NCBI RefSeq assembly: GCF_900660615.1
Contig: NZ_LR215023.1
Coordinates: 1-64,000 of the forward strand
Direction of reading: 5' to 3'
Source: Malacoplasma iowae
GTDB taxonomy: Bacteria > Bacillota_I > Bacilli_A > Mycoplasmatales > Mycoplasmoidaceae
DNA: 64,000 bases
Part shown: positions 54,406 through 57,591 of the stretch, one piece after another
Layout of the letters: every line of letters begins with the position of its first letter
How positions within the stretch are numbered: position 1 is the first letter of the stretch
Translations under genes and position numbers: made by a program
Notes under the pieces: model-generated
Told to the model about the DNA's origin: nothing
Databases searched by the model: none
Seen by the model: the letters and a program-made list of their open reading frames with translations, nothing else

Positions 54406-55425
54406 ATGAAAGCTAGAGCGATACAAAGACATATTCATTTATCTCCTAGAAAAGCTAAACTTGTATGTGACTTAATTAGAAATAAAAATGCTACTGTTGC
54501 AATCAACATTTTAGAGAATACAAGAAAAAAAGCAGCACCAATCGTTTTAAAACTTTTACATAGTGCGATTGCAAATGCTACAAACAACCATGCTTTATCT
54601 GGTGATAAACTTTATGTTTACCACATTGTTGCTAACCAAGGGCAAACATTAAAAAGAACAAATCCAAGAGCTAAAGGTTCAGCTGATTTGTTAAAGAAAA
54701 GACATTGTCACATTGAAATCATCTTATCAGATGATCCAAATGAAAGAGCTAAAGATTTAGCTTTAATTAAAGAACGTCAAGCTAAAAGAGCTAAAAATAA
54801 TAAAGGTTATTCAGCTAAACAACGTGCTGGAAAAGTTGAAAAGAAAAAAAGAGAAGACAAGCCAGTTGTTAAAAAACCAGCACCAGCTAAAAAACCTGAA
54901 CCTAAAAAGGTAGAACAAAAACCTGTTGTAGAACGTAAAGTAAGTGCTGAAGCTTTAAAAAGAGAACAAGAACAACTAAAAGTAGTTGAAACAAAACCAG
55001 TTGAAAAAACTGCTGATAAAAAAACTGCAAAACCAGTAGAGGTTGAAAAAACAGCTATTATTATGATTTCAGCTTCTCCAAAACACGCTGACATTTTGTT
55101 AGATGATCCAAGTAAAAAAGTTTTCTTTTATAAAGTTACTCCAGTTAACAAAGTTAAAAGAGTATTGATTTATGCAACTGCTCCAATTCAAGGTGTTGTT
55201 GGTGAATTCGATTTAGAAAAAATTGATATTAAAGCTGTATCAACAATTTGAAAAAATTATGGTGCAAATTCTGTACTATCTAAAAAAGAATACGATGAAT
55301 ATTATAAAGATAAAAAAGAAGCGCATGCAATGATTTCTAAAGAAGCATTTAGATATAGTAAACCTAAAAAACTTGAAGACTTTAATATGAAAAAAGGTCC
55401 AAGTGGTTTCCAATATTTAAAATAA
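54406..55425 (+). CDS. rplV: 50S ribosomal protein L22 fused to an ASCH-like domain
   Basis: Residues 1 to about 115 are uL22 ([20 protein letters not shown]; the beta-hairpin [20 protein letters not shown]), which lines the exit tunnel. A Lys/Pro/Glu linker to about 215 follows, then a folded domain at about 217-330: [48 protein letters not shown] and [16 protein letters not shown]. This pattern resembles the PUA-like ASCH family (YIYAT..I..VVGEF). Total length is 339 against ~110-150. The same linker and domain end the next gene, rpsC. An RNA-binding role is inferred. TGA at 55249-55251 is Trp, so the fusion is in one frame. Confidence 0.9.
55366..55425 (+). repeat. 60-base direct repeat, 3' end of rplV
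   Basis: Matches 56601-56660 (the end of rpsC) with one visible mismatch (T/C in a Gly codon). It encodes the shared last 19 residues. It marks recent duplication or gene conversion of the two C-terminal domains. Confidence 0.9.
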
Positions 55426-55445
55426 TTTAAGAGAGGAAAATTATT

Positions 55446-56660
55446 ATGGGACAAAAAGTAAATCCAAATGGATTAAGAATTGGGATTAACAAAAACTGAC
55501 AATCAAGATGAATTGCTTTAGATGGTAAACAAACTGCTAAGTGATTAGTTGAAGATGACAAGATCAGAAACCATTTAATTAAAAAATTCAAAGCTGCGCA
55601 AATCGCTAATATTGAAATTGAAAGACAACAGAAAAAAATTGATTTATTTATTCATTGTTCACAACCAGGTATTATTCTTGGAAAAGATATGGCAACTTTA
55701 AAAGTTGTGAAAAAAGATGTAAACCTAATTGTTGGTAGAGATGTTAAAGTTAATGTTAACGTTTTAGCTTTAGACAAACCAGCTTTATCAGCAAGAATAA
55801 TTGCAAGAGAAATTGCTGATGCAATTGAAAATAGAATTTCTTTTAGAAATGCTCAAAAAATTGCAATTAAAAAAGTTTTAATGAATGGAGCTAAAGGTAT
55901 TAAAACTCACGTATCAGGTAGACTTGGTGGGGTTGAAATGGCTAGAGAAGAAGGATATTCAGAAGGTATTGTTCCTCTAACAACTTTAAGAGCAGATATT
56001 GATTATGCTTTAGAAGAAGCTCATACAACTTATGGTTTAATTGGTGTTAAAGTTTGAATTAATCGTGGTGAAATTTTTGATAAAAAAGTTCAAAGAAAAG
56101 AAATGCCTGTTAAAAAAATGGAACCTAAAAAACCTATTCAACAAAAACCAGTTCAAAAACCTGTCCAAAAGCCAGTAGAACAAAAACCTGTTAAAGAAGT
56201 TGACCCAGAAGCTTTAAAAAGAGAACAACAACAATTAAAAGTTGTTGAAAGTAAACCTAATGAAAAGAATGTAAAAGTTGAAGAGACTTCAATCATTATG
56301 ATTTCAGCAAGTCCAAAACATGCTAACAAATTATTAGATGAAAAAGAAACAAATGTTCTTTTCTATAAGGTTACACCAGTAAATAAAGTTGAAAGAGTTT
56401 TAATTTATGCAACTGCTCCAATTCAAGCAGTTGTTGGTGAATTTGATTTAGAAAAAATCGATATTCATGCTCTATCAACATCTTGAACAAAATTTGGTAA
56501 AAACTCAGTTTTAACTAAAAAAGAATTTGATGAATATTATGAAGGAAAAAAAGAAGCACATGCTCTTATTTCTAAAAAATCATTTAGATATAGCAAACCA
56601 AAAAAACTTGAAGACTTTAATATGAAAAAAGGTCCAAGTGGCTTCCAATATTTAAAATAA
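55446..56660 (+). CDS. rpsC: 30S ribosomal protein S3 fused to an ASCH-like domain
   Basis: Residues 1 to about 220 are a normal uS3 ([17 protein letters not shown], the KH region with [30 protein letters not shown]), which lines the mRNA entry channel. A Gln/Lys/Pro-repeat linker follows to about 280, then the same ASCH-like domain as in the preceding rplV at about 281-395: [49 protein letters not shown] and [15 protein letters not shown]. Linker pieces [14 protein letters not shown] are shared with rplV, so the unit was duplicated whole. Total length is 404 against ~220. AGAGGAAAA precedes the ATG. Confidence 0.92.
56601..56660 (+). repeat. 60-base direct repeat, 3' end of rpsC
   Basis: Second copy of 55366-55425, 1235 bases downstream. 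Confidence 0.9.
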
Positions 56661-56690: not shown

Positions 56691-57128
56691 ATGTTACAAC
56701 CAAAACGTACAAAATATAGAAAACCTCATCGTGTAAGCTATGAGGGAAAAGCTAAAGGTAACAATTATATTGCTTTTGGAACAATGGGTCTAATGGCAAC
56801 ATCTGGTAATTGAGTTACTGATAGACAAATTGAAGCTGCTCGTATTGCTATATCAAAGACTTTAGGAAAAACAGGAAAAATGTGAATTAGAATTTTCCCT
56901 CATATGTCTTTAACTAAAAAACCACTAGAAGTACGTATGGGTTCTGGTAAAGGTTCTCCAGAATTCTGAGTAGCTGTGGTTAAAGCTGGAACTGTTATGT
57001 TTGAAGTTGCTGGAATTCCAGAAGAACAAATGAGAGAAGGATTAAGAAGAGCTGGTCACAAATTGAATGTTAATTGAAAGATAGTTAAAAAAGAGGATTT
57101 TGTAAATGATCAAAGAACTACAAAATAA
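56691..57128 (+). CDS. rplP: 50S ribosomal protein L16 (uL16)
   Basis: A 145-residue uL16 at the tRNA-binding face: [38 protein letters not shown] and [23 protein letters not shown] precedes the ATG. Its end overlaps the start of rpmC by 23 bases in a different frame, so rpmC is translationally coupled. Several TGA codons are Trp. Confidence 0.97.
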
Positions 57129-57591
57129 AACAGATATTGAATTAGGTCAACTAATTTGTAAACTTAAAATCCAATTATTGGAATTAAGATTCAAAGCTGC
57201 TAATGGTGAATTAGAAACTACACACACAGCAAAGGAAATAAGAAAAACAATTGCTAATGCAATGACAGTATTATCTCAAAGAAATGTTAAAGTTTCTTTT
57301 ACAACTCACAGCACACAACTAATTAAAACTGTAAACAATAAACAAGTTATAAATTCAATTAACAATGCTAGCTTAATCTCATCAGTAGTTTCACAAAAAG
57401 CTCAACAAAACAGTAAAAAACCAAGTGGTAAAGTAACTACTAATAAAACAAAAACAAATGAACCTAAAAAACATATTCAAAATATTGATAACAAACAAAA
57501 AAAAGTTCAAACTAAACCTGCAACTAAACCAATTGAAAAAAAATCAACAAAACAATCATCAGTGCAAATAAGAAAGACTGCTAAAGGATAA
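57106..57591 (+). CDS. rpmC: 50S ribosomal protein L29 (uL29) with a long tail
   Basis: The first ~65 residues are uL29 ([60 protein letters not shown]). A further ~95 residues rich in Gln, Lys, Asn, Thr and Ser follow, so the protein is 161 residues rather than ~65. AAAGAGGA inside rplP is the ribosome-binding site. The tail looks disordered; uL29 sits at the exit-tunnel rim, so it could reach nascent chains or the membrane. Confidence 0.93.
   Translation: MIKELQNKTDIELGQLICKLKIQLLELRFKAANGELETTHTAKEIRKTIANAMTVLSQRNVKVSFTTHSTQLIKTVNNKQVINSINNASLISSVVSQKAQQNSKKPSGKVTTNKTKTNEPKKHIQNIDNKQKKVQTKPATKPIEKKSTKQSSVQIRKTAKG

Follow-up and report, generated by a model that had tools for sequence, protein, structure and literature searches.

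The ribosomal proteins uL22 and uS3 encoded in the window, the 64,000-nucleotide stretch of Malacoplasma iowae DNA analysed here, end in near-identical C-terminal domains that are predicted to adopt the ASCH fold. About even chances are given here to the reading that these tails are copies of one mobile ASCH-fold module, most likely non-catalytic, that tethers one common partner near the ribosome. The descent of the module from a stand-alone bacterial ASCH protein is shown by fold, profile and tree.

Architecture and fold of the uL22 and uS3 tails

Both genes lie at the positions given in the preliminary description, on the forward strand in an ordinary S10/spc ribosomal-protein operon, and their frames are open under code 4: rplV (uL22; 54406-55425, +) encodes 339 amino acids and rpsC (uS3; 55446-56660, +) encodes 404. 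The cores of both proteins give normal scores, far above the Pfam cut-offs. In uL22, the conserved core (54406-54735, +; residues ~1-110; PF00237, E 1e-34 over residues 5-108) is followed by a linker (54736-54933, +; residues 111-176), made of a basic helix and a K/P/E/Q-rich stretch that is predicted to be disordered. Next come an 18-residue helix motif (54934-54987, +; residues 177-194), common to fused copies on different hosts and helical in AlphaFold2 (AF2) models, and the C-terminal ASCH-fold domain (55054-55422, +; residues 217-339), assigned by AF2, by structure match to 5guq and by the ZmASCH profile. The full-length AF2 model of uL22 (9 sequences; moderate confidence, mean pLDDT 67.8) places these parts in the order core, basic helix (113-132), low-confidence linker (pLDDT <50 at 141-176), helix motif (181-188), low-confidence stretch and domain; the docking of the helix in the AF2 models is to be taken as tentative. 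The parts of uS3 follow the same order, with a conserved core (55446-56084, +; residues 1-213; TIGR01009 rpsC_bact, E 2e-78 over residues 1-213; KH_2 and S3_C), a K/P/Q-rich linker recognised from its sequence (56085-56192, +; residues 214-249), an 18-residue helix motif aligned with that of uL22 (56193-56246, +; residues 250-267) and the C-terminal ASCH-fold domain (56289-56657, +; residues 282-404).

The two C-terminal domains, of 123 residues each, are 80% identical over 122 residues (E 3e-60), which bears out the near-identity described earlier; the bounds first proposed, 217-330 in uL22 and 281-395 in uS3, needed only slight lengthening. The uS3 domain is the best match of the module profile in the window genome (E 1e-57), and single-sequence and profile searches of this 1.28-Mb genome found module copies only on uL22 and uS3 and no separate ASCH gene. 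The double fusion is not a sequencing artefact, because the near relative G007 has both fusions (its uL22 copy is 95% and its uS3 copy 79% identical to the uL22 query) and, compared across these two genomes, the domain has a dN/dS of 0.044 in the uL22 copy and 0.088 in the uS3 copy. With the cores at ~0.01, these sequence comparisons indicate that the domain is under strong purifying selection. The uL29 of the window (57106-57591) is also extended, its 161 amino acids being far above the usual length, with a K/T/S/N-rich tail.

An AF2 model of the module, built from 31 sequences with no templates, has a mean pLDDT of 86.4, with the domain mostly at >=90 and the helix motif, a predicted helix, at ~81. 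Its top match among solved structures is ZmASCH (5guq; Foldseek E 1e-10; VIA Z 16.8, rmsd 1.6 A over 124 residues), followed in VIA by AF2351 (Z 11.8), TTHA0113 (11.1), the TRIP4 ASCH domain (8.9), YqfB (7.9) and YTH domains (~7 to 8). The β-barrel with flanking helices that typifies the ASCH superfamily of the PUA-like clan is thus predicted for the fused domain. Sequence agrees with structure, as the uL22 domain used as a single phmmer query recovers the Zymomonas ASCH protein (5gus/5guq; E 2e-9), and a profile of the fused domain matches 5guq at E 1e-19. The Pfam ASCH model (PF04266) gives no match over the window genome or in Pfam scans of 23 fused domains; a close stand-alone relative matches it above the cut-off (E 4.5e-6, 27.7 bits). 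By predicted structure and profile the fused domain is of the ASCH fold, though the Pfam ASCH model misses it. A folded ASCH/PUA-superfamily domain in place of a disordered tail, as first proposed, is therefore upheld by the model, the structure matches and the ZmASCH profile, and the profile comparison with ASCH succeeds through ZmASCH and stand-alone ASCH intermediates but fails with Pfam. In the same scans DUF365 stayed below threshold (24.8 bits vs 25.9), and the other matches were by chance.

Pocket residues of the fused domain

ZmASCH, from Zymomonas mobilis (5GUQ/5GUS), is a ribonuclease of single-stranded RNA (PMC5615036), and its functional residues, as given in that study, define the positions at which 23 fused domains were compared with 27 stand-alone ones. 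The ASCH lysine K27 (27/27 stand-alone, 20/23 fused) and the RNA-contacting tyrosines Y47 and Y90 (each 27/27 and 22/23) stay, and K53, which belongs with Y47 and S128 to the nucleic-acid cleft, is found in 13 of the 23 fused copies. R32 (27/27 stand-alone), E30 (25/27) and G25 (23/27) occur in none of the fused copies, from which the GxKxxxxR motif of catalytic, ZmASCH-type ASCH RNases is thus absent; in a column inferred from the PPQS motif, Q127 (27/27) and S128 (22/27) are replaced in all 23 by Ser and Gly, respectively. A new near-invariant set, missing or in the minority in stand-alone proteins, comprises F241, P246, R252-V253, G266, F268-D269-L270, Y285, H307, M328, K330-G331, S333-G334 and L338-K339, or, read as motifs, F-P, R252-V, GEFDL and KGPSGF-YLK. 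The pattern suggests that the domain dropped its old chemistry and took on a new, strictly kept binding task. At ~26% identity the fused copies share the fold of ZmASCH and mostly keep the Tyr47, Thr49, Tyr90 and Lys27 positions, but ZmASCH stands alone, retains the lost residues and motif, and differs from the fused copies in that these carry an extra N-terminal helix motif.

It is quite improbable, in our estimate, that the module is a ribosome-docked enzyme active as an RNase or in RNA processing. The close fold match to the ssRNA-cutting ZmASCH would fit such an enzyme, as would the retention in 22 of 23 fused copies of Y47, which ZmASCH needs for both binding and cleavage (PMC5615036), but R32, E30, Q127 and S128 are lost from all 23, and an S128A substitution already weakens nucleic-acid binding by ZmASCH (PMC5615036). 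The Escherichia coli ac4C amidohydrolase YqfB likewise shares the ASCH fold. It relies on a Thr-Lys-Glu triad and an essential Arg26, but in the fused copies the position of the catalytic Thr24 is hydrophobic and that of Arg26 is Tyr/Phe; a YqfB-type amidohydrolase is not supported at these two positions, on an inferred mapping that takes K21..R26 as the GxKxxxxR stretch (PMC6972931).

The preliminary description had further suggested that the domain could bind mRNA or rRNA, which the fold alone cannot show. RNA is a possible ligand, judged from the residues, because Y47 and Y90 are kept and the ribosomal copies have a net charge of +1 to +11, and the case is weakened because half of the tested RNA-contact residues of the pocket are replaced. 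The Pro-rich protein of g8 bears a strongly acidic copy (net charge -18), which means that RNA binding cannot be the same in every copy.

Host proteins and history of the module

On any host, almost every fused copy carries ahead of the domain the motif of consensus xExLKREQxxLKVV, whose conservation is highest on ribosomal proteins and lower on AtpA; helix motif and domain behave as one unit. It is rather unlikely that the ribosomal proteins merely serve to express the domain in ribosome stoichiometry, with cleavage at the linker releasing a free ASCH protein. Host identity would then be irrelevant, and the conserved LKREQxxLKVV motif directly preceding the domain, the presence of the domain on one protein per subunit in the window and the lack of a separate ASCH gene in the window genome would all fit, but no cleavage signature could be recognised, the motif belongs, by prediction, to the module as a helix, and the gene neighbourhood implies no protease.

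Fusions were surveyed in 149 relatives, then in 95 genomes of the family, 320 of the order and 392 sampled from the phylum, and hosts were called by reading the fused proteins and S10 regions directly; several of the genomes are incomplete MAGs, in which absences are weaker than presences. At least one ribosomal copy is present in all ten Malacoplasma genomes. The module is on uL22 and uS3 in the window genome (G000), G007 and G001 (1,358,633 bp; presumably M. penetrans HF-2), on uL22 and bS20 in G006, on uL22 alone in G009, and on uS3 alone in G002, G003, G004, G005 and G008. The same domain on both subunits, put forward earlier as a new ribosome architecture, is consequently not conserved, since five of the ten genomes have it on uS3 only, one on uL22 only and one on uL22 and bS20. 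Pairing of the uL22 and uS3 modules, which would bridge subunits or neighbouring ribosomes in hibernation or polysomes, appears very improbable; three genomes (G000, G001, G007) do have two copies, one per subunit, but five have a copy on the 30S subunit only and one on the 50S only, and the monomeric state of ZmASCH in solution (PMC5615036) leaves no pointer to dimerisation.

Beyond Malacoplasma, Ureaplasma, which falls in genus g11, has the module on uL22 and on AtpA, the ATP-synthase alpha subunit, in U. canigenitalium (G028), U. sp. ES3154 (G019) and G042, while U. diversum (G058) has it on uL22 and on a protein cut by a contig end that is probably AtpA. G067 carries it on bS16, and divergent copies in G016 and G025 have AtpA and a Pro-rich protein as hosts; the host assignments S20, S16 and F0F1 AtpA are confirmed by NCBIfam matches. 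No module was found in G036, G048, G054 or G061, in the haemotrophic genomes, or in G024 (580,076 bp), which we take to be M. genitalium. It is also absent from Malacoplasma AtpA wherever that protein was found whole, including the AtpA of the window (512 aa). A degenerate module on the window bS20 was considered and rejected, its tail being merely K/S/T-rich. Outside this branch (order, n=320; phylum, n=392), matches are nearly all stand-alone proteins of ~125-135 aa. Stand-alone ASCH genes of other Mycoplasmatales (L122, L123) lie near genes for proteins that, on visual inspection, resemble a GNAT-type acetyltransferase with a PUA/EVE-like part, in surroundings that look like small mobile islands.

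The module is always at the extreme C-terminus of its host, and module-free homologues finish in simple K- or N-rich tails that show no remnant of it. The chance of three independent ribosomal hosts in Malacoplasma is ~2e-4 for a random draw (~50 ribosomal of ~800 genes), a rough estimate that ignores any bias to tailed proteins. We consider it unlikely that the module is only a C-terminal cap shielding disordered tails from proteases, or a tolerated hitchhiker, a mobile gene fragment that stays folded so as to do no harm, with no binding partner in either case. Such a role would fit the K-rich disordered tails of its hosts in relatives, its extreme C-terminal position and its traceless loss from individual proteins, but relatives keep their tails naked, and both the near-invariance of GEFDL, GPSGF and YLK across hosts and genera and the ribosomal retention in 10/10 Malacoplasma genomes exceed the needs of folding.

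The domain tree sets all 27 fused rows apart, at 100/97, from the 11 rows of stand-alone ASCH proteins; owing to long branches, its inner placements are unsure. The uL22 and uS3 copies of G001 pair together in this tree, and they are 94% identical in nucleotides over the domain, with the similarity continuing through the helix motif and the linkers upstream diverged. The G001 copies have thus been homogenised, likely through gene conversion between the two genes. In a species tree from the uL22 and uS3 cores, Ureaplasma does not stand beside Malacoplasma, and g3, the sister of Malacoplasma, is without the module; losses or transfer must therefore have occurred. The order of genes around the fusions also varies, with rpsC moved behind rpmC in six Malacoplasma genomes (rplV-rplP-rpmC-rpsC; L082, L083, L085, L088, L089, L090) relative to the window (rplV-rpsC-rplP-rpmC). 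Similar K/S/T-rich repeats in the uL22 and uL29 tails of some of these six are a possible recombination substrate.

A proposed tether and the prior record

The comparisons above show the fold, descent, mobility, selection and loss of old pocket residues; the tether built on them is a proposal. The helix motif and the 123-residue domain form a mobile unit that descends from a stand-alone ASCH protein, with an active pocket rebuilt such that K27, Y47 and Y90 stayed, E30, R32, Q127 and S128 went, and a new invariant set arose; because of this rebuilding, the module would most likely be a non-catalytic binding domain. Long disordered linkers would attach it to any ribosomal protein with an exchangeable tail. 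The tether would then hold a common partner, whether RNA, a ribosome-associated factor or a membrane complex, near the ribosome, and the exact ribosomal position of the module would not matter. Copies move between genes and are homogenised, putatively by gene conversion, and in Ureaplasma the same module is borne by the ATP-synthase alpha subunit as well. That uL22, uS3, bS20 and bS16 can all serve as hosts speaks against a task tied to one place, such as the tunnel exit, the mRNA entry or a bridge between subunits, and favours one for which proximity is enough.

The uL22 fusion itself is already known, as NCBIfam family NF008917 / PRK12279 ('50S ribosomal protein L22/unknown domain fusion protein'); the identity of the domain, its mobility and its other hosts are absent from the sources searched. 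The window uL22 matches NF008917 over its full length (E 1e-134, 448 bits), under the cut-off of 526 that G042 (635 bits) and G001 (585 bits) pass; because these two pass it and G042 aligns from 1-311 to 1-311, the family was probably built from sequences of this kind. It leaves the domain unnamed, and its title is silent on the uS3, bS20, bS16 and AtpA copies. In the literature searched, no paper describing the module was found, none joining an ASCH domain with Ureaplasma or with mycoplasma and a ribosomal protein, and none on M. penetrans and ribosomal protein L22; one match on ASCH domains in mollicutes is about restriction systems.

In eukaryotes, ubiquitin is fused to eS31 and eL40 and so likewise places one small domain on one protein per subunit, but it is N-terminal, cleaved off, of unrelated fold and fixed in its hosts. 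In M. pneumoniae, of the same broad lineage, 11 ribosomal proteins carry extensions, C-terminal on L22, S3 and others, whose disruption affects fitness, but these are for the most part disordered, although S6, L22 and L29 have secondary structure in them, and no shared folded domain is reported; S3 is retained there with a 17-residue tail (Xue 2022; PMC9534751). That every Malacoplasma genome examined has at least one ribosomal copy suggests an accessory of the ribosome not described before. Few proteins are as conserved as those of the ribosome, and a folded domain that changes host among uL22, uS3, bS20 and bS16, undergoes homogenisation and stays on the ribosome in all Malacoplasma genomes would be an evolvable accessory. 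The purpose of mycoplasma ribosomal-protein extensions thereby becomes directly testable in the cultivable M. penetrans, M. iowae and Ureaplasma, and the 'unknown domain' of the NCBI family gets a name.

The Ureaplasma AtpA copies widen the ribosomal setting of the preliminary description and show that the function of the module is not purely ribosomal. This host points either to a link with the membrane or to an address tag of more general use. A wider proposal, which we regard as doubtful, is that the non-catalytic ASCH-fold tag gives ribosomes and the Ureaplasma ATP synthase a common docking partner, linking for example translation to the membrane or to RNA, and so acts as a transferable targeting module, an address label exchanged among ribosomal proteins.

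In the atp operon, an extra membrane-protein ORF (~270 aa) lies between atpA and atpG in three Ureaplasma genomes (L145 in G042, L146 in G019, L035 in G028), and one adjoins the module-bearing fragment of U. diversum (L149 in G058). Its homologues are limited to these four Ureaplasma of the 95 family genomes, with none detected in Malacoplasma or g8; at the same place, g8 (L037) has an ORF with hydrophobic stretches and no detectable relation to it. A fixed partner encoded in the atp operon was therefore rejected, and an ORF confined to Ureaplasma does not explain the ribosomal copies. Ion-channel-like membrane proteins L041 (G040) and L059 (G052), whose divergent matches were left out of the analysis, have weakly ASCH-like ends (profile E 2.6e-10 and 1.3e-6, respectively), which may be one more, remote case of the fold serving as a C-terminal tag.
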